Assembly: GCA_009694195.1 (NCBI GenBank)
Contig: SHVQ01000011.1
Coordinates: 1-64,000 of the forward strand
Origin: Rhodospirillales bacterium
GTDB lineage: Bacteria > Pseudomonadota > Alphaproteobacteria > Rhodospirillales > SHVQ01
DNA: 64,000 nt
Reading direction: 5' to 3'
The number at the start of each line of letters is the position of its first letter. The first letter of the stretch is position 1. Of this stretch, positions 25,655-63,933 are shown in pieces. The translations under genes were made by a program, and so were the position numbers. The notes beneath the pieces are model-generated. The model was given only the letters and a program-made list of their open reading frames with translations. It was not told the origin of the DNA and searched no databases.

Positions 25655-26665
25655 CTAATATCCGCGCTCGGGATCGACCACGTTGAACAGCGGCCGGCCG
25701 GCGAGCCAGCGGTCCAGGTTGTCGCAGAACAACGCGACCGAGTCGTACTGCCAGTCCTTGTAGTCGCTGATGCAGTGCGGCGTGACGAGGACGTTCTCCA
25801 TCGTCCAGAGCGGGCTCTCCGGCGGAAGCGGCTCTTTCTCGAAGACGTCGAGGGCGGCATACCCGATCGGCCCGTTGCGAAGGGCCTCGATCAGCGCCTC
25901 CTGGTCGGCCACGGCGCCGCGCGCGAGATTGATGAAAATGCAACCCGGTTTCATGACCGCGATCGTGCGCCGGTCGAACAGCTTCCGCGTCTCCGGCGTC
26001 GACGGGACGGATGACACCACGACGTCGCTTTGGCGGAGCACGTCCAGCATCTTGTCCGGGCCGACCACCTCGTCGACACCCGCCATGGGCGCGGGCCGGG
26101 CGCGAACGCCGAGAACCCGCATTTCGAGCGCCGCGGCCTTCTTTGCCACCGCTTGGCCGATATGGCCGAGGCCGATCACGCCGACCGTCTTCCCCTTGAT
26201 CCGCTCGACCTGCTGGTAGCTCCATTCCTTCTTCGCCTGCCGGCGCCAGAAGGACGGGAGCCGGCTCGAAAACGCGATGATGGCTCCGATCGCGTATTGG
26301 GCGAGGGTGTCGGCCGTGACGCCGGCGCCGTTGGTCACCGTGATCGCTTGCGGGTCCCAGGGCGTCAGAAACTCGCAGCCCGCGCCCGAGACGGCGATCC
26401 ACCTGACGCCGGGCGTACCGAGCGCGGCCTCGCGCGGATAGGGATGGGGATGCGTGCGGCACGTGAACAGGACCTGCGGCTTGAGCTGGGCGCCCTTCGG
26501 CGCGATCTCCGCGTAGGTTTTGGAGACCTGCATCTCGAGCTCCGGGAACCGCGTGCGGATGAGATCGAAGTAGTCCTTTTCCCACATCGTCGCGACGAGG
26601 AGACGGGTCCCCGCGCCCTTCAAGCGGCGCGGCTCGGGCAGCGCGGACTCCGGAGCTTTTGTCAT
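25655..26665 (-). CDS. D-2-hydroxyacid dehydrogenase, tandem paralogue B
   Basis: The 336-residue NAD(P)-dependent dehydrogenase has the Rossmann motif VGVIGLGHIGQAV, the substrate arginine in NLARGAV, the catalytic glutamate in DVFEKEP and the catalytic histidine in VTPHCIS. All active residues are present. It reduces 2-oxoacids or oxidises D-2-hydroxyacids; the exact substrate cannot be read. The start at 26665 gives an N-terminus matching its neighbour. It is the same length as the upstream paralogue and very similar, so it arose by tandem duplication. Confidence 0.9.
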   Translation of the reverse strand: MTKAPESALPEPRRLKGAGTRLLVATMWEKDYFDLIRTRFPELEMQVSKTYAEIAPKGAQLKPQVLFTCRTHPHPYPREAALGTPGVRWIAVSGAGCEFLTPWDPQAITVTNGAGVTADTLAQYAIGAIIAFSSRLPSFWRRQAKKEWSYQQVERIKGKTVGVIGLGHIGQAVAKKAAALEMRVLGVRARPAPMAGVDEVVGPDKMLDVLRQSDVVVSSVPSTPETRKLFDRRTIAVMKPGCIFINLARGAVADQEALIEALRNGPIGYAALDVFEKEPLPPESPLWTMENVLVTPHCISDYKDWQYDSVALFCDNLDRWLAGRPLFNVVDPERGY

Positions 26666-26712
26666 GGGGGGGACCCTTCGGGTGGCCGTGACGAGGGCGA
26701 ATTCAAGCGCGG

Positions 26713-27723
26713 CTAATATCCGCGCTCGGGATCGACCACGTTGAACACCGCCTCGCCCCTGAGCCAGCGGCCGAGATTGTCGCAGAAGAGCTCGACATAG
26801 GCCCGCTGGATGTCCTTGTAGTCGCTGATGCAGTGCGGCGTGACGAGGACGTTCTCCATGTCCCAGAACGGGCTCTCCGGCGGCAGCGGCTCTTTTTCGA
26901 AGACGTCGAGCGCGGCGTGGCCGATCGGGCCGTTGCGCAGCGCCTCGATCAACGCGGGCTCGTCGACGACGGCGCCGCGCGCAAGATTGATGAAGAGACA
27001 GCCCGGCTTCATCGCGGCGATCGCGCGCCGGTCGATCAGCTTCCGGGTCGCCGGCGTCGAAGGCACGGTGACGATGACGACGTCGCTCTGCTTCAAGACG
27101 TCCAGCATCCGCTCGGGCCCCACGACCTCTTCGACGCCTTGCATGGGAACAGGGCGGGCGCGGACGCCGAGCACCCGCATGCCCAAGGCCGAGGCCTTGG
27201 TGGCGCAGCTCCGTCCGATGTGCCCGAGGCCGACGATGCCGACCGTCTTTCCGGCGATCTGCTCCACGGCGTGGTACTGCCAGACACGGGCCTGTTGCTG
27301 GCGGAGGAAGGTCGGGATCCGGCTCGCGACCGCGATGATGGCGCCGATCGCGTACTGGGCGAGCGGGTCGGCGGTGACGCCGGAGCTGTTCGAGACCGTG
27401 ACCTTTTGGGTGTCCCACGGCATGAGGTAGTCGCAGCCGGCCCCGGTGACCGTGATCCAGCGCACGCCCGGAACCGCCAACACCGTTTCGCGGGGAAACG
27501 GCCCCGGCCGGTTGCGCCCGGCGAACATCACCTGCGGCTTCAAGGCCGCGCCCTTCGGGGCGATCTCGTCATAGGCGTGACAGACCTGCATCTCGATCTC
27601 CGGGAACCGGGCGCGGATCGGGTCGAGGTAGTCCTTTTCCCACATCGTCGCGACGAGGAGACGGGTCCCCGCGCCCTTCAAGCGGCGCGGCTCCGGCAAC
27701 GAGGAGTCCGATGCATCGATCAT
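26713..27723 (-). CDS. D-2-hydroxyacid dehydrogenase, tandem paralogue A
   Basis: The 336-residue paralogue of the next gene has VGIVGLGHIGRSC, NLARGAV, DVFEKEP and VTPHCIS, all intact. The first 30 residues (PEPRRLKGAGTRLLVATMWEKDY) and the last ten (FNVVDPERGY) are nearly identical in both. The substrate-side region around residues 60-110 differs more (RNRPGPFP against RTHPHPYP), which may mean different substrates. It begins 11 bp after the tyrS stop and is probably transcribed with tyrS. Confidence 0.9.
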   Translation of the reverse strand: MIDASDSSLPEPRRLKGAGTRLLVATMWEKDYLDPIRARFPEIEMQVCHAYDEIAPKGAALKPQVMFAGRNRPGPFPRETVLAVPGVRWITVTGAGCDYLMPWDTQKVTVSNSSGVTADPLAQYAIGAIIAVASRIPTFLRQQQARVWQYHAVEQIAGKTVGIVGLGHIGRSCATKASALGMRVLGVRARPVPMQGVEEVVGPERMLDVLKQSDVVIVTVPSTPATRKLIDRRAIAAMKPGCLFINLARGAVVDEPALIEALRNGPIGHAALDVFEKEPLPPESPFWDMENVLVTPHCISDYKDIQRAYVELFCDNLGRWLRGEAVFNVVDPERGY

Positions 27724-27734
27724 GGGCGGCGCCT

Positions 27735-29000
27735 TCAGACGGCCTTGACGAGCGCGTGCCGCTTCTTGCCGGCGGAAAGCTTGATGATGCCGAGCGCGCT
27801 GTCCACGTCGGCGAGCGTCACCGCCTGGGTTTCGGTTTTGATGGGCGTATCGTTGATGCGCCCGCCGCCGCCCTTGATGAGCCGGCGCGCCTCCCCGTTC
27901 GATGCCGCGAGGCCCGCCCGGCGCAGCAGCTCGAACGCCGGAACGCCCTTGGCAAGCGCATCGCGCGAGACCTCGATGGTCGGCAGCTGATCGCCCTGGT
28001 TGCCGTCCTCGAACGTTTTGCGCGCCGTGTCGGCCGCGGCTTCGGCGGCGTCGGTCCCGTGCGCGAGGCGCGTGGTCTCGTTCGCGAGGATCTTCTTCGC
28101 CTCGTTGATCTCGGCGCCGCGCAAGGCTTCGAGCCGGGCGATCTCCTGTGTGGGCAGGTCGGTGAAGAGCCGCAGGAATCGCCCGACGTCGGCGTCTTCC
28201 GTGTTCCGCCAGTATTGCCAGTAGTCGTAGGGCGTGAGCACCTCGGCGTTCAGCCAGACCGCGCCTTCGGCCGTCTTCCCCATTTTGGCGCCGGACGCCG
28301 TGGTGAGCAGCGGCGTCGTCAGGCCGAACAGCGCCCGCTCGTCGACCCGGCGGGCGAGATCGACGCCGTTCACGATGTTGCCCCACTGGTCGGAGCCGCC
28401 CATTTGCAAGCGGCATTGCCGGCGGCGCGCGAGCTCGAGAAAATCATAGGCCTGCAGCACCATGTAGTTGAATTCGAGAAAGGTGAGCGGCTGCTCGCGC
28501 TCCAGGCGGAGCTTGACGCTGTCGAAGCTCAGCATGCGGTTGATCGAGAAGTGGCGGCCGTAGTCGCGGAGGAACGGAATGTACTCAAGGTCGTCCAGCC
28601 AGTCGGCGTTGTTGACCATGACGGCATCCGTGGGCCCATCGCCGAAGCTGAGAAAACGGGAGAAGACGCGCTTGATCCCGTCCATGTTGGCCGCGATGTC
28701 GGCGTCGGTCAGCAGCTTCCGCGCCTCGTCCTTGCCGGAGGGATCTCCGACCTTCGTGGTGCCGCCGCCCATCAGCACGATCGGCTTATGGCCGCTTTGC
28801 TGGAATCGCCTGAGCAGCATGATCGAAACCAGGCTTCCGACGTGCAGGCTCGGCGCCGTGCAATCGAACCCGATGTAGCCGGCGATCGGTGCTGACGCAG
28901 CAAGAACCGTATCCAGCCCCTCCAGGTCCGTGCACTGGTGCAGGTAGCCGCAGTCGATGATGGCTTGGATGAATTCCGAGCGATAACGGGTCATGATCAC
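27735..29000 (-). CDS. tyrS: Tyrosyl-tRNA synthetase
   Basis: The 421-residue class I synthetase has the HIGH-type motif HVGS and the KMSKS-type motif KMGKT ([14 protein letters not shown]). Its tyrosine/anticodon features QWGNIV and a C-terminal S4-like domain are also present. GTG at 29000 has a GGAG site eight bases upstream. An ATG two codons later is the alternative. It is divergent from anmK, a common proteobacterial arrangement, with two dehydrogenases downstream. Confidence 0.96.
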
Positions 29001-57238: not shown

Positions 57239-57312
57239 GCTCTGGCCCTTGCCTCCCGTTGGCTTCCGCCGTTAACGTGTCGCGCACAGAACATCATCTG
57301 GAAACATCCTCT

Positions 57313-58623
57313 ATGGCTGGGCAGCGTTCTTGGACGGATGAGCTTTCTCGCGCGCTCGACACTGAAATGGCGCTCGCGGATAGGCTCTTTCGGAAGCTGA
57401 AGGAACGGACCGGCAATCCGTCCGGCAAGGGCGTCGTGCGGGACTCCTACGGCAAGGGCGAGCAGATCGCCCACGAGATATGCACGGAAGCCGCGCGCGC
57501 GCTCGATTTGGACGTGTCGACCGATTTCGCCGGCAATCTCTATATGACGCTGCCGGGAGAGGATCGGGCGGCCCCTGCGTGGTTCACGGGCTCGCATTTG
57601 GATTCGGTGCCGAGCGGCGGCAACTATGACGGCGCGGCCGGCGTCGTCGCCGGGCTCGCGGCGCTCGCCGCATTCCGCCGCGCGGGAACGAAACTAGCGC
57701 GCGACGTCACCGTCGTCGGCACGCGCGCCGAGGAGGTCGGGAGCTGGTTCACGGGCCGCCACAGCGGCCATGTCGGCAGCCGCGCGGCCCTCGGGCTCTT
57801 CTCCGAGGAAGAGCTCGATTCCGCGGTTCGCCAGGACACCGGCCTCAGCATGCGCCGGCACATGGAACAGTCGGGGTTCGATCCCAAGGCCCTCTTCGCC
57901 AGCCCGCCGCACCTTGCCCCGTCGCGCCTCAAGGGCTGGGTCGAGCTGCATATCGAACAGGGGCCGGTCTTGGAGCGCGAAGGCTACCCGGTCGGCGTTG
58001 TCACGGGAATTCGCGGGACAGTGCGCGCGCGCGACGCGGCCTGCATCGGCGCGTACACGCACTCCGGCGCCGTGCCACGCGAATACCGGCAGGACGCCGT
58101 GATCGCGGCCGCCGACTTCATCGGCGCGATGGACCAGGCGTGGGAGCGCGTCCTCGCGAGAGGAGGCGATCTCGTCTTCACGGTCGGCAAGCTTTATACG
58201 GACGCGAGCGTCCACGCACTCTCGAAGGTGCCGGGCGAAGTGCGCTTCTGCATCGATCTTCGCAGCCAGGACGAGACCGTGCTCCAGGAGATGGCGGAGC
58301 TGGTTCAGCGCCACGCGCAGGCGATCGGAAAAAAGCGCCGCGTGCGGTTCGAGATCGGGCCTGTGTCCACGCAGCATCCCGCGGTCATGGATGCGACGTT
58401 TCGCCGCACGCTCATGGAGGGATGCCGGGCCCTCGGGATCGCCGCCATGGATATCCCGAGCGGCGCCGGCCACGACGCTGCCGAGTTCGCCCACGTGGGC
58501 GTGCCCGCCGCCATGATCTTCGTCCGCAACGCCAACGGCAGCCACAACCCGGACGAGGCCATGGAGATGGACGACTTCGCGCTCGCCACGCGTCTGCTCG
58601 CCTGGTTTTTCACCACCCGATAA
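57313..58623 (+). CDS. M20-type carbamoylase / allantoate amidohydrolase-like
   Basis: The 436-residue zinc hydrolase has GSHLDSVPSGGNYDGAAGV, GTRAEEVGSWF, HIEQGPVLE and SGAGHDAAEFAH, the layout of N-carbamoyl-L-amino-acid hydrolases and allantoate amidohydrolases. These release ammonia and CO2 from N-carbamoyl or ureido compounds. The start at 57313 gives the normal N-terminus. It begins a run of four same-strand genes with two dehydrogenases and SirB1 behind it (gaps 25, 18 and 15 bp). Confidence 0.9.
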   Translation: MAGQRSWTDELSRALDTEMALADRLFRKLKERTGNPSGKGVVRDSYGKGEQIAHEICTEAARALDLDVSTDFAGNLYMTLPGEDRAAPAWFTGSHLDSVPSGGNYDGAAGVVAGLAALAAFRRAGTKLARDVTVVGTRAEEVGSWFTGRHSGHVGSRAALGLFSEEELDSAVRQDTGLSMRRHMEQSGFDPKALFASPPHLAPSRLKGWVELHIEQGPVLEREGYPVGVVTGIRGTVRARDAACIGAYTHSGAVPREYRQDAVIAAADFIGAMDQAWERVLARGGDLVFTVGKLYTDASVHALSKVPGEVRFCIDLRSQDETVLQEMAELVQRHAQAIGKKRRVRFEIGPVSTQHPAVMDATFRRTLMEGCRALGIAAMDIPSGAGHDAAEFAHVGVPAAMIFVRNANGSHNPDEAMEMDDFALATRLLAWFFTTR

Positions 58624-58648: not shown

Positions 58649-59668
58649 ATGAAAGTCCTGCTGAACTGGTTTCCCAAAGAAGCGGAAATCAAGCGTGTCC
58701 GCGACAAGCTGCCGAAGGGCACGGCGGTAATCTCGCCGAAACCGCGGGATGTTCTGTCTCCCTATGAAGTCACGTATGAAGACGATGTCGACATCGTCAA
58801 GGACGTCGACATCATCGTCGCCCGCGTGGTGCCGCCGGGCATCTGGGAGAAGGCGGAGAACATGAAGGCGCTCGTCTGGCTGCACGCGGGCTGCGACGAG
58901 CTCGACCTCGCCATGCTGAAGCGGCGCGGCATCCTGGTCGCCAACAATCGCGGCGCCAATGCGTCCGCCGTCGCCGAGCATGCGATGGCCCTGGTCCTCG
59001 CGATTGCGAAGAAGATCGTGATGAAACACAACAATGTCCGCGCCGCAAAATGGACGGCCTTCTGGGAGACCGAAAATCAGGGCGTGCTGCTCGAAGGCAA
59101 GACCATGGCCGTCCTCGGCTTGGGCGAGATCGGCCTCCGCGTCGCCCGCCAGGCGAAAGCATTCGACATGCGCGTGATCGGCATCCGCCGCAATTCTGAG
59201 AAACCGGCGGCCAATGTCGATGCGGTCTACGGGCCGAAGGACCTCCACCGCGTTCTCGGCGAGGCCGATGTCGTCGTTCTGGCGACTCCACTCACCAAGG
59301 AGACGCTCGGCTTCATCGATGCGGCGGCATTGGCCGTGATGAAGCCGACGGCCCTCCTCGTCAACATCGCGCGCGGCAATCTCGTGCAGGAGTATCCCCT
59401 TTATCGCGCGCTCACCGAGGGCCGGCTGGCAGGGCTGGCGACCGACGTCTGGTGGAACTACACGAACGCGATTCCCGCCACCTATCATTTCCCGGTGCCG
59501 TCGCGGACGAACCTCCAACACCTTCCGAACGTGATCGGAAGCGGCGACCAGGCGGCACGCGTGCGCGAAGTCCTCGACCGTCACATCGACTGGGCGACCG
59601 AGAGCGTGGCCGAATTCATCGCGACCGGACGGATGAAGCGCCAGATCAACCTCGATCTCGGATACTGA
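58649..59668 (+). CDS. D-2-hydroxyacid dehydrogenase-like, noncanonical site, paralogue 1
   Basis: The 339-residue protein has an NAD-binding Rossmann motif (MAVLGLGEIGLRVA) and the substrate arginine in NIARGNL. The usual catalytic pair is missing. Where family members have DVFE, this has DVWW (residues 267-270), and where they have TPH it has SGD (298-300). So the Glu and His are replaced. It may use another residue, or bind rather than catalyse. It is one of a tandem pair and different from the pair at 25655-27723. Confidence 0.85.
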   Translation: MKVLLNWFPKEAEIKRVRDKLPKGTAVISPKPRDVLSPYEVTYEDDVDIVKDVDIIVARVVPPGIWEKAENMKALVWLHAGCDELDLAMLKRRGILVANNRGANASAVAEHAMALVLAIAKKIVMKHNNVRAAKWTAFWETENQGVLLEGKTMAVLGLGEIGLRVARQAKAFDMRVIGIRRNSEKPAANVDAVYGPKDLHRVLGEADVVVLATPLTKETLGFIDAAALAVMKPTALLVNIARGNLVQEYPLYRALTEGRLAGLATDVWWNYTNAIPATYHFPVPSRTNLQHLPNVIGSGDQAARVREVLDRHIDWATESVAEFIATGRMKRQINLDLGY

Positions 59669-59686
59669 CGGGAGGCGCGAACGGTC

Positions 59687-60709
59687 ATGAAAGTCCTCCT
59701 CACCTGGTTCCCTCCGGCCGACGAGCTCCAGCGGATTCGTGCCGGGCTGCCCGCGGGCACGGCGGTCGTGGCGCCGAAGCCGCGCCCCGTGCTGTCGCCC
59801 TACGAGGTCAGCGCCGCCGATATCGCCGATCACATCGGAGATGCGGACGTGATCGTCGGACAGGTCATGCCCGCCGGTTCGTGGGAGAAGGCCAAGCAGC
59901 TCAAGGCCCTCGTCTGGCTCCACACGGGCGTCCAGGAGATGCCGTTCCAGCTCCTGAAGGAGCGCGGGATCCAGCTCGCCAATACCAAAGGGGCGAACGA
60001 TATCCCGGTCGCCGAGCATGCGTTCGCGTTGATCATGACGCTGGCGAAGAAGTTGATCGTCCGCCACGAGAACGTGCTCGAGGCCCGCTGGACGGCGTTC
60101 TGGGAGCCCGAGAACCAGGGCATGCTGCTCGAAGGCAAGACCATGGCGATCGTCGGTCTCGGCACCATCGGGACCAAGATCGCGAAGCGCGCCAAGGCCT
60201 TCGACATGCGGGTCGTGGGGCTGCGCCGGCACCCGGAGAAGGGCGGCAGCGAATTCGTCGATGCCCTCTACGGGCCGAAGGACCTCCACACGATGCTCGG
60301 CGAGGGCGATATCGTCGTGGTGGTCACGCCGCTGACCGAGGAGACGACCGGGTTCATCGACGACGCGGCCATCCGGGCCATGAAACCGGGCGCCCTGCTC
60401 ATCAACATCGGGCGCGGCAATCTGATCCAGGAGCATCCTCTTTCCGTGGCGCTCACGGAGGGGCGGATCGGCGGGTTCGCGTCCGACGTCTGGTGGCATT
60501 ACATAAACGCGATCCCGTCGACCTATCACTTCCCGACGCCGTCGCGGACGAACATGCAGCACCTCCCGAACGTGGTGTGCACGGGCGACCAGGCCTCGCG
60601 CGTTCCGGAGACCCGCGGGCGCATGATCGCGATGGCGATCGAAAGTACTGCCGCGTTCATTCGGGGCGAGACGATGCCGCGCAGCGTCAACCTTGACCTT
60701 GGCTACTAG
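59687..60709 (+). CDS. D-2-hydroxyacid dehydrogenase-like, noncanonical site, paralogue 2
   Basis: The 340-residue tandem paralogue of the preceding gene has MAIVGLGTIGTKIA and NIGRGNL. The same substitutions occur at the active site: DVWWHYINAIP in place of DVFExEP, and a TGDQ in place of TPH. That both copies share these changes means the site was altered before duplication and has been kept, so the protein is probably functional. A GGAGG site precedes the ATG 18 bp after the first copy. Confidence 0.85.
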   Translation: MKVLLTWFPPADELQRIRAGLPAGTAVVAPKPRPVLSPYEVSAADIADHIGDADVIVGQVMPAGSWEKAKQLKALVWLHTGVQEMPFQLLKERGIQLANTKGANDIPVAEHAFALIMTLAKKLIVRHENVLEARWTAFWEPENQGMLLEGKTMAIVGLGTIGTKIAKRAKAFDMRVVGLRRHPEKGGSEFVDALYGPKDLHTMLGEGDIVVVVTPLTEETTGFIDDAAIRAMKPGALLINIGRGNLIQEHPLSVALTEGRIGGFASDVWWHYINAIPSTYHFPTPSRTNMQHLPNVVCTGDQASRVPETRGRMIAMAIESTAAFIRGETMPRSVNLDLGY

Positions 60710-60724: not shown

Positions 60725-61552
60725 ATGGATCGGCCCGCGCTTCTCGCGCACCTGCGGAATGTCGGCGCGGCCCCCGGCGCGCAGGTCGATATCGCGGACA
60801 CGGCGCTTGTCCTGGCTGCGCTCGACCGCCCGGACGCCGATATCGCCACCTACCGCCGCTACCTCGCGGCGCTTGCGGAGGAAACGGTCAAGCAAGCGCC
60901 GGCGCGCATGCCGCTTCCGGAGCGCGCCGCGATCCTCGCCCAGGTCATTTACCGGGATCACGGGTTTTCGGGCGACACCGAGACCTACGAGGATGTGCAG
61001 AACGCCAATTTGATTCGCGTCATCGACCGCCGCAAGGGGCTGCCGGTCGCGCTCGGCATCCTCTGCATGCATGCGGCCCGCGCGTGCGGCTGGGAGATCG
61101 AGGGGTTGAACTTTCCGTCCCACTTCCTGATCCAGCTCTCCCAGGCCGGCGACCGCCTGATCGTCGATCCCTTCAACGGCGCGCGCCCGATGGACGCGCC
61201 CGCGCTGCGGCAGCGTCTCAAGGAGGTGATGGGCAGCGGAGCGGAATTAAAGGCGGACGACTGCGCCGCCGTCCACGACCGCGACATCCTTTTGCGGCTG
61301 CAGAACAACATCAAGGTCCGCGCGCTACAGAAGGACGACTTCGCACGCGCGGCAGGCGTCGTGGAAAGCATGATGGCGCTGGCACCCGTTTCGCCGGGTT
61401 TGATGCAGGAATTCGCCGTTCTGCAGGCCCGGCAGGGCAACATGAAGCGGGCCATCGAGACAGCCGAAGCGCTCCTTGCGTGGAACCTCCCGGCGGGCGA
61501 GCATGGTGCCGTTCAGGAGCTCTTGCGCCGGTTGAAGGGCAGCCTGCACTGA
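60725..61552 (+). CDS. SirB1-family transglutaminase-like/TPR protein
   Basis: The 275-residue SirB1 (YchA) protein has the conserved core ENANLIRVIDRRKGLPV-like stretch (here NANLIRVIDRRKGLPVALG) and GLNFPSHFLIQL. A C-terminal helical region follows (TPR-like, from about residue 195). SirB1-type proteins have a transglutaminase-like fold and no settled biochemical role. It begins 15 bp after the second dehydrogenase and closes the run. Confidence 0.88.
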   Translation: MDRPALLAHLRNVGAAPGAQVDIADTALVLAALDRPDADIATYRRYLAALAEETVKQAPARMPLPERAAILAQVIYRDHGFSGDTETYEDVQNANLIRVIDRRKGLPVALGILCMHAARACGWEIEGLNFPSHFLIQLSQAGDRLIVDPFNGARPMDAPALRQRLKEVMGSGAELKADDCAAVHDRDILLRLQNNIKVRALQKDDFARAAGVVESMMALAPVSPGLMQEFAVLQARQGNMKRAIETAEALLAWNLPAGEHGAVQELLRRLKGSLH

Positions 61553-61621: not shown

Positions 61622-62632
61622 TCAAACGACCTGAAACCCGTGCGCGTAAGGGTCTCGGCCGTCGACGAAGATCGTGTTCAACCCGGTCGTCCGCGCCCAG
61701 CCCTTGATGACGGGGCGGATCGCCGTGCGGTTGCCAAGCGGTTCGGCCGAGTCCACGCGGCCGTGGAACAGGCTTCCGATGATGCTTTCGTGGACGAACG
61801 CGTCGCCGACCTTGAGGGCGCCGCGGTCGAACAACTGCGCCATGCGGGCCGATGTCCCGGTGCCGCAGGGCGAGCGGTCGATCGCCTTGTCGCCGTAGAA
61901 GACGGCGTTGCGGGCGTGGGCCTGGGCGTCGCGCGCGCGCCCCGTCCACATCACGTGGGTGACGTTCCGGATGGTCGGGTCCTCGGGATGCACCACCGAT
62001 AGTTTTTTGTTGAGCGCCTGGCGGACGAGCGGGCTGAGGCGCAGGATATCGGCGACGCTCACCCCGTCGAGCCCGGGATAGTTGGGCTGCTCCTCGATGA
62101 TCGCGTAGAAGTTTCCGCCGTAGGCGATGTCGCACGTGAGCTCGCCCACGCCCGGGCATTCGAACCGGACGCCGGCCTCGTGGAGGAAGCTCGCGACGTT
62201 GCGGATGCTGACCGATTCGACGAACCGGCCGTTCCGCTCGAAGCTCGCCTCGACGACGCCCGCGGGGGCATCGAGGCGGAGCTTGCCCGTCTCGCGGGGC
62301 GAAACGATCCCATGCTCGAGCGCCATGGTGACGGTTCCGATGGTGCCGTGGCCGCACATGGGCAGGCACCCCGTCGTCTCGATGAAGACGATGCCTAAGT
62401 CGCAATCGGGCCGCAAGGGCGGATAGAGCACGGAGCCGGACATCAGGTCGTGGCCGCGGGGCTCGAACATGAGGGCGCGGCGCACCCAGTCGAAATGCGC
62501 GATGAAATACTGGCGGCGCTCGCTCATCGTCGCGCCTTCGAGCGCAGGGCCCCCACCGACGACCATGCGGACCGGATTTCCGCAGGTGTGGCCGTCGATG
62601 CAAAAGAAGGTGTGCGAGGATACGTCTGTCAC
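61622..62632 (-). CDS. Proline racemase / 4-hydroxyproline 2-epimerase family
   Basis: The 336-residue protein has the two catalytic cysteines of true racemases/epimerases, C93 in PMCGHGTIG and C256 in SPCGTGTSA. Dehydratases of this family have threonine at the second site instead. GTG at 62632 is used, with a GGAG site eight bases upstream. A TTG at 62698 is the alternative. An FAD amino-acid oxidase lies directly upstream, which is the usual neighbour of 4-hydroxyproline epimerase, so hydroxyproline is the best guess over proline. Confidence 0.85.
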   Translation of the reverse strand: MTDVSSHTFFCIDGHTCGNPVRMVVGGGPALEGATMSERRQYFIAHFDWVRRALMFEPRGHDLMSGSVLYPPLRPDCDLGIVFIETTGCLPMCGHGTIGTVTMALEHGIVSPRETGKLRLDAPAGVVEASFERNGRFVESVSIRNVASFLHEAGVRFECPGVGELTCDIAYGGNFYAIIEEQPNYPGLDGVSVADILRLSPLVRQALNKKLSVVHPEDPTIRNVTHVMWTGRARDAQAHARNAVFYGDKAIDRSPCGTGTSARMAQLFDRGALKVGDAFVHESIIGSLFHGRVDSAEPLGNRTAIRPVIKGWARTTGLNTIFVDGRDPYAHGFQVV

Positions 62633-62694
62633 GCGCCTGTCTCCCGTGCGGATGGTAGAGGACGCGTTCCCGCCGATCAACGTCGGGGGCGCCT

Positions 62695-63933
62695 TCAAAA
62701 GCGGTCGACGCGATAGGGCCGGAGGTCGATCCCGGGGTCGCGACCGGCCGCCATGTCGGCGACGATCTTCCCGGTGCGCGCGGCCAGCGTCAGGCCGACG
62801 TGCCCGTGCCCGAACGCGAAAAGGACGTTCTTATGGACGGGCGAGCGCGAGATCACGGGAAGCGAGTCCGGCATGGACGGGCGGAACCCCATCCAGCGGG
62901 TCATCCCCGCCGTCTCGAGGCCGGGAAGCCAGGGGCGCGCCGATTTCAGAAGAATGTCGGCCCGCCGCCAGTCGGGGGGCGCGTCGAGTCCGCCGAGCTC
63001 CACCGTGCCGGCAAGACGGATCCCGGTTTCGAGCGGCGTCATCGCGACCGCGCGCTCGCTCGAATGAACGGGGTGGCGCAACAACACGCCGGGCGTGGGC
63101 AAGTGCACGTGGTAGCCGCGCTCGGTATCCAGGGGGACCGCGCTTCCGAGCTTGGCGGCGAGCGGCTTCGACCACGCCCCGGCGGCGATCACCACATGGT
63201 CGCAAGGGTGCGATCCGGCGTCCGTCAGCACGGCCCTCGGCCCGTCCGGCCCGACCTCGAATCCCCGCACGTCGGCCTTCACGACGGCGCCCCCGTGCCG
63301 TACGACGGCCTCGGCAAGGACCTGAACCAGCCTGTAATTGTCGACCACGTGGGCCACGTCCGGATAGAACAGCGCCCGCACGAAGAGGGGCGCCAGCCCC
63401 GGTTCCAGCTGACGGAGCTCGTGGACGTCCAATTCTTCGATGCGGACGCCGCGCCGGCGCTCGATGTCCATGATCGGCTTCAGCGCATGGAAGCCCTTCT
63501 CCGTTTCGAACACCTCGATTTTTCCTGCGCGCTGGATCATGCCCTTCGCACCAGCGGCTTCAAGAAGAGGGTTGAAGGCATCGACCGCGCCTTTCATGAG
63601 CTCGCCCAAGGAGATCGAGAGCGCTTCCACGCGCGCCGTGGTGCTTTCCGCGAGAAACCGTAGGAGCCAGGGCGCAAGCTTGGGCAGGTAGCGCCAACGG
63701 ATGGCGAGGGGTCCCAGCGGGTCCAACAGCATTTTGGGCACCCGCCAGAGGATGCCCGGCGTCTGCACGGGGACGACGGCCCACGTCGCCAAAATCGAGG
63801 CATTGCCGAAGGACGCGCCTTCGCCGGGGCCCTGACGGTCGATGAGGGTCACCCGTTGTCCGGCGGTCGCCAACGATAGAGCCGAACAGACGCCGACGAT
63901 CCCGGCGCCGACGACGACCGTATGTTGGGTCAT
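62695..63933 (-). CDS. FAD-dependent D-amino-acid dehydrogenase/oxidase (DAO family)
   Basis: The 412-residue flavoprotein has the dinucleotide motif VVVGAGIVGVCSAL at the N-terminus, the FAD-linked block DRQGPGEGASFGNASI and a C-terminal VLFAFGHGHVGLTLAARTG, typical of DadA-like enzymes. With the epimerase downstream, it would oxidise cis-4-hydroxy-D-proline to pyrroline-4-hydroxy-2-carboxylate. It starts 13 bp after the stop of a truncated upstream gene. Confidence 0.9.
   Translation of the reverse strand: MTQHTVVVGAGIVGVCSALSLATAGQRVTLIDRQGPGEGASFGNASILATWAVVPVQTPGILWRVPKMLLDPLGPLAIRWRYLPKLAPWLLRFLAESTTARVEALSISLGELMKGAVDAFNPLLEAAGAKGMIQRAGKIEVFETEKGFHALKPIMDIERRRGVRIEELDVHELRQLEPGLAPLFVRALFYPDVAHVVDNYRLVQVLAEAVVRHGGAVVKADVRGFEVGPDGPRAVLTDAGSHPCDHVVIAAGAWSKPLAAKLGSAVPLDTERGYHVHLPTPGVLLRHPVHSSERAVAMTPLETGIRLAGTVELGGLDAPPDWRRADILLKSARPWLPGLETAGMTRWMGFRPSMPDSLPVISRSPVHKNVLFAFGHGHVGLTLAARTGKIVADMAAGRDPGIDLRPYRVDRF

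Follow-up and report, generated by a model that had tools for sequence, protein, structure and literature searches.

The 64,000-nucleotide stretch of Rhodospirillales DNA analysed here (the window) carries two adjacent genes for proteins with the fold of the D-2-hydroxyacid dehydrogenases (2HADHs), in which two catalytic residues of that fold, a Glu and a His, are both absent. The locus raises the question whether such proteins are still enzymes and, if so, which kind of reaction they may perform.

Two tandem genes of the 2HADH superfamily

The pair and its immediate neighbours are located as follows:

57259-58623, + strand: M20 hydantoinase/carbamoylase-family hydrolase, 25 bases upstream of copy 1
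58649-59668, + strand: copy 1 (P0001), 339 aa, 2HADH fold without the catalytic Glu and His; Y271, D300, H79, R242, R286
59687-60709, + strand: copy 2 (P0002), 340 aa, same substitutions as copy 1
60725-61552, + strand: SirB1-like transglutaminase-core/TPR protein, 15 bases downstream of copy 2

Both copies are intact, open full-length ORFs, arranged in tandem with a gap of 18 bases, and their products share 62% protein identity. PF02826 (2-Hacid_dh_C) matches them with E values of 1e-44 and 4e-42 (152 and 144 bits, against a gathering cut-off of 25.1), and PF00389 (2-Hacid_dh) with 47 and 49 bits (cut-off 24.6). The two Pfam domains, the GxGxxG motif and the two-domain fold place both proteins in the 2HADH superfamily; the original prediction of tandem D-2HDH paralogues holds for two adjoining ORFs at exactly these coordinates. 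Neither copy reaches the curated cut-off of the named NCBIfam equivalogs (PGDH, GhrA/B, LdhA, PdxB, FDH, VanH): the best score, 162 bits, is obtained for PGDH, whose cut-off is 454, and all others are also far below.

The AlphaFold2 model of copy 1 has a pLDDT of 93.3 and a pTM of 0.90, being less confident at a short stretch (273-275) of the loop that follows Tyr271. Its Foldseek neighbours are glyoxylate reductases, D-lactate dehydrogenases and PGDH, the best solved matches being glyoxylate reductases; a structure search of BFVD added no useful match.

The upstream M20 gene scores 274 bits with TIGR01879 (cut-off 204) and 475 bits with PRK12891 (cut-off 461); translation probably begins further downstream than at the listed TTG, and the gene is a probable member of the same operon as the pair. 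The SirB1-like gene, possibly co-transcribed with the pair, was not seen beside other members of the clade described below. A second tandem D-2-hydroxyacid dehydrogenase pair is found in the window at 25655-28416, on the - strand: both of its members feature the canonical FEKEP and PH.

Active-site residues

The register was set by an alignment of 23 clade members and 45 canonical homologues, where the catalytic Glu column is located five residues past the Asp in DVFxxE. The key positions, numbered on copy 1, correspond to the following codons:

58883-58891, + strand: codons 79-81 (H-A-G), with His79 beside the carboxylate-binding Gly81
59117-59134, + strand: codons 157-162, GLGEIG dinucleotide motif (GxGxxG)
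59372-59374, + strand: codon 242, substrate Arg, kept
59459-59461, + strand: codon 271, Tyr in the catalytic Glu column
59546-59548, + strand: codon 300, Asp in the catalytic His column (GDQ)

As originally predicted, the NAD motif and the substrate arginine are kept: GLGxIG is retained at 157-162 in both copies, with G157, G159 and G162 invariant in the clade, and Arg242 is found in 23/23 clade members and in 45/45 canonical homologues. The carboxylate-loop Gly81 is universal in both sets. Of the canonical Arg-Glu-His triad, then, the Arg is present in all 23 clade members, the Glu in none and the His in one.

Position 271 is Tyr throughout the clade (23/23), while canonical homologues have Glu (43/45) or Asp (2/45). 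The loss of both catalytic residues, claimed from the first inspection of the sequence, is therefore real, but that of the Glu occurs through Tyr271 and not, as proposed, through a WW replacing the FE of the family. The first W of the pair, W268, occupies the F column of DVFxxE and is invariant in the clade; the second, W269, falls in a variable column, where W is also found in 20 of the 45 canonical homologues. The register equating WW with FE was accordingly rejected. The replacement of PH by GD is correct: the canonical His (35/35 where aligned) corresponds to G299-D300 in both window copies. D occupies position 300 in 18 of the 23 members, with N and G in two members each and H in a single frameshifted copy; N or G are found in paralogues of the window's genome and its relatives. 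Because this position is not fixed, Asp300 cannot serve every member as the essential acid/base, and its role as a universal substitute for the His was discarded.

Other clade-specific residues, among them His79, His127 and Arg286, had been overlooked. His79 is present in 21/21 members, the same column being G or S in 44/45 canonical homologues; the substrate carboxylate is clamped by main-chain amides, those of the residues that correspond to 80 and 81 (PMC6303947), so that His79 adjoins the clamp in sequence. His127 (20/21) takes the place of an R found in 43/45 canonical homologues, and Lys121 that of an R found in all of them. Arg286 (21/21) lies within the region 271-293, where about 7-9 residues are inserted after Tyr271. 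Finally, where the second Rossmann strand ends, an invariant Arg180 takes the place of an acidic residue, a hint that the cofactor is NADP(H). A takeover of the usual catalytic role by a nearby His or acid, which would count against the new chemistry or binding role first proposed, is a real possibility here: the candidates are the invariant His79, by Gly81, along with Tyr271 and Asp300 at the former Glu and His positions.

Extent and conservation of the clade

The clade, as found, comprises 23 members, all from Alphaproteobacteria and many located on rhizobial plasmids. Profile scores separate it from other proteins: full-length members score at least 499, two fragments 280 and 293, the next protein 220. 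In a tree built by a quick method and rooted at the midpoint, it forms one side of a branch with an SH-aLRT of 98. Its distribution is rare and patchy: members are present in 4/385 genomes of an alphaproteobacterial sample, 1/397 of an order-level sample around a Devosia-labelled genome, 2/298 of a family sample and 2/398 of a phylum sample, both of the latter from Alphaproteobacteria. Among plasmid records, from a collection biased to nodule isolates, 14 pass 1e-40, and all ten whose coverage of the query reaches 80% belong to rhizobial genera. The window's genome contains five full-length copies. In this genome (2.5 Mb, 73% complete) both M24 genes (32 DoeA matches) and 2HADH genes (19 matches) are unusually numerous.

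The changes are not private to the window pair, being spread over the whole clade of 23 proteins. Since relatives in other genomes carry the same set (Tyr271, His79 and, mostly, Asp300), the substitutions predate the duplication in the window, in agreement with the claim that they had been fixed before it. Proteins with Tyr for Glu which keep the His (L076; L013:2513-3490) were considered as intermediates and set aside: they fall outside the clade in the tree, on long branches.

Damaged members are also found: one is frameshifted in Mesorhizobium NZP2077 (L109:9001-10025), another is N-terminally truncated in Sinorhizobium CCBAU 05631 (L110:9001-9576). These two cases may be seen as an indication that the genes are relaxed or decaying duplicates, with no present role. 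Such an explanation is extremely improbable for the pair: both window copies are open over their full length, five full-length copies coexist in one genome, and close pairs elsewhere in the clade are under purifying selection, with dN/dS values (NG86) of 0.094 for G172 versus G438 and of 0.054 for two Mesorhizobium sequences. Conservation of the new residues, together with purifying selection, argues for function rather than decay. The clade is a real and distinct variant 2HADH subfamily; what is said below about its reaction is inferred.

Public annotations, such as "2-hydroxyacid dehydrogenase" or "NAD(P)-dependent oxidoreductase", conceal the missing Glu-His pair. No paper on the clade was found by literature searches: it appears not to be described in the searchable literature, and is known here from sequence and gene neighbourhood.

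Relation to known enzymes

The best sequence and structure matches to the pair are canonical 2HADHs: glyoxylate reductase (5aov/2dbq), PGDH (1wwk) and McyI (8wph). The two-domain fold, GxGxxG, the substrate Arg and the carboxylate-loop Gly are common to them and to the clade, which differs in having Tyr for Glu, Asp, Asn or Gly for His, the new His79, His127 and Arg286, and the insertion after the Glu column.

Several known proteins show that the fold tolerates changes of the triad. In subfamily X4, represented by PAE1175 of Pyrobaculum (1qp8), whose function is unknown, both the catalytic His and Glu are lost and the NAD site is kept (PMC6303947), as in the clade. X4 is archaeal, however, with His replaced by Trp and Glu by Val, while the clade, found only in Alphaproteobacteria in the samples covered, features Asp, Asn or Gly and Tyr in these columns, along with the new His, and does not belong to X4; 1qp8 is merely one among many PDB matches. 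The type IIIK phosphoglycerate dehydrogenase SERA (4njo) is active with a substituted triad, where Lys replaces His and Glu is absent (PMC6303947); the clade, similarly devoid of Glu, mostly has Asp for the His. Plant ANGUSTIFOLIA (AN) is a further precedent, not counted as an enzyme (PMC6303947).

Two more relatives concern the reaction. The NAD-dependent formate dehydrogenase of 2HADH type works without acid-base proton transfer (PMC6303947), and is therefore a precedent for a mechanism free of a proton donor. It keeps the His and has Gln for Glu, whereas both copies lack Gln and His in those columns as well as the PF[HW]P loop motif, so that the pair falls outside that group. Bsp5 (6p2i), the rank 16 structural match to the copy 1 model (about 23% identity), has acyclic imino acid reductase activity (PMC11876095) and is a precedent for imino acid substrates, different from hydroxy acids, in a 2HADH fold. 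It is likened to the clade by fold alone, and its working with a partner oxidase is counted as a difference.

Gene neighbourhoods

M20 and/or M24 hydrolase genes are found in 10/10 rhizobial plasmid loci, versus 1/8 control loci, where canonical 2HADHs are encoded on plasmids of Rhizobium, Sinorhizobium and Agrobacterium; the Fisher value of this contrast (p 2.5e-4) is optimistic, because the plasmid loci are not independent, L093/L107 and L108/L097 being syntenic pairs. Ectoine genes (ehu/eut/doe) are present in 6/10 plasmid loci and 0/8 controls: they are seen in L093, L107, L108, L109 and L110, and in L097 through homology to L108 (76-89% identity).

One member in Mesorhizobium 131-2-5 comes after ehuABCD-eutA-doeA-doeB; another adjoins genes for a PLP-aminotransferase-type (EnuR-like) regulator, a class III aminotransferase, SSADH and Lrp. 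The order in Mesorhizobium AR02 is ehuBACD-M24-M20-EutA-like-member, where the M24 protein scores 608 bits against a DoeA cut-off of 613, and the same gene set is found in Microvirga VF16. In R. etli IE4771 two members share a cluster with a pair of M20 genes and with genes for M24, Lrp, aminotransferase and ALDH; it otherwise resembles its counterpart in R. tropici CIAT 899, where EutB-EutC are present. A cluster similar to those of the clade (M24, class III aminotransferase, SSADH, Asp/Glu racemase, Lrp), found in Rhizobium binae, contains a canonical Glu/His 2HADH (L125:8836-9852).

In the window's genome, the C10 copy adjoins genes of a polar amino-acid ABC transporter with an EhuA-like ATPase, which reaches 318 bits against the EhuA cut-off of 345. 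Also beside it are genes for a DoeA-like M24 protein, a class II aldolase, a PhyH dioxygenase and a protein resembling 3-hydroxyaspartate aldolase; the C10 association is weak by itself because of the abundance of M24 genes in this genome. The second G438 copy is adjoined by a DAO oxidase, with a Lrp-type regulator, ALDH and M24 further off; at L116 the gene adjoining a member encodes a DAO-type FAD oxidase. The neighbours of the C47 pair and of the G172, G274 and G438 (C64) copies are unrelated, with no ectoine-type, M20 or M24 setting, so the ectoine link is not universal. An ectoine-specific role for all members is consequently unsupported, the window pair also being without ectoine-type neighbours.

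An N-carbamoyl substrate, suggested at the outset, has as its sole basis the M20 hydantoinase/carbamoylase-subfamily gene upstream of the pair. It finds no support as a common theme: M20 neighbours belong to different subfamilies, and other members lie beside M24.

Co-occurrence with EutB and EutC

Co-occurrence with EutB/EutC was counted on the plasmid records alone. Of the eight with an intact member, six lack EutB/EutC, and two carry them at about 19-24 kb. The S. meliloti and R. tropici clusters have EutB/EutC and no clade member; NZP2077 has EutBC along with the frameshifted member. This pattern is suggestive, not conclusive, of the clade member standing in for EutBC in some clusters; strict replacement is unsupported, as two records carry both. 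The likeness consists of comparable places in related gene clusters: the folds of EutB and EutC (threonine dehydratase type and ornithine cyclodeaminase type) differ from that of the clade. EutC is a proposed reductase of the EutB product, and this step in hydroxyectoine use is described as not biochemically evaluated (PMC5924519). The link to ectoine-type clusters thus offers concrete candidate substrates, and possibly a missing step in hydroxyectoine use.

Possible function

The reading favoured here, which falls a little short of being probable, is that the pair represents a distinct, new 2HADH subfamily with a rebuilt active site, likely acting as a NAD(P)-dependent oxidoreductase in the catabolism of amino-acid-like solutes. 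By its sequence the site is rebuilt rather than eroded: Tyr271 and, usually, Asp300 replace the Glu-His pair, the new invariant His79 lies by the substrate-carboxylate loop, and a short insertion carrying the invariant Arg286 comes after Tyr271. Most likely NAD(P) would still be bound, with Arg242 and the Gly81 loop holding a carboxylate substrate, and hydride would be transferred. The proton may come from a new position, His79 or Tyr271; alternatively, no proton donor would be needed, if the substrate were an imine or iminium. The gene neighbourhoods point to amino-acid-like solute catabolism with M20 or M24 hydrolases as the setting, including ectoine/hydroxyectoine-type systems in several rhizobia.

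The imine alternative may be developed into a special case of the favoured reading, in which the clade is an imino acid reductase and takes the place of EutB/EutC in some ectoine clusters. Its substrate, acyclic or cyclic, would come from a partner, which may be an FAD oxidase, a dehydratase or a hydrolase. A general-acid His would be unneeded, because a protonated iminium accepts hydride directly. The idea draws on the genes found nearby and on Bsp5, a distant relative in fold: DAO, DadA, RidA, alanine racemase or FAD oxidoreductase genes occur near members at L095, L098, L109 and L116, and the mostly exclusive presence of EutB/EutC, with EutC as a proposed reductase, is consistent with it. 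The two records with EutB and EutC as well as an intact member speak against it, and this special case is rather unlikely. The same low expectation applies to the proposal in its full form, namely that the donor has moved to His79/Tyr271 or been dispensed with, and that C-N instead of C-O redox is carried out in ectoine-type catabolism, replacing EutB/EutC in some rhizobia. It is likewise somewhat unlikely that the reaction is unchanged, with the clade acting as an ordinary 2-hydroxyacid dehydrogenase/2-oxoacid reductase where Tyr271, His79 or Asp300 performs proton transfer. Arg242, Gly81 and GxGxxG are all retained, SERA type IIIK provides a precedent, and the Rhizobium binae cluster shows a canonical enzyme in a similar place; yet several active-site columns have changed together, with an insertion, beyond what a conservative swap would need.

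The loss of both acid/base residues and the drift of position 300 in several paralogues could also be accounted for by a non-catalytic, NAD(P)-dependent binding or regulatory pseudoenzyme, comparable to AN, which lacks the catalytic residues (PMC6303947), or to a co-repressor. This is clearly improbable, given that H79, Y271 and R286, in or beside the active site, are new, polar and invariant, that the substrate Arg is retained and that members are placed among catabolic hydrolases, transporters and aminotransferases. The comparison with a co-repressor refers to CtBP, which has such a role. Being conserved, and combining a substituted triad with a new invariant His, the clade offers a direct test of the ways in which the fold may change its chemistry.

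Two further gene groups were observed. In the window, at 61622-63933 on the - strand, a 4-hydroxyproline epimerase gene (564 bits, cut-off 376) overlaps a D-amino-acid-dehydrogenase-like DAO gene: facing the pair, they likely form a hydroxyproline catabolic operon. The Mesorhizobium 131-2-5 plasmid carries a bacterial ubiquitin-like operon (L131:3285-7380), a row of genes for multiubiquitin-domain, E2/UBC and ThiF proteins.
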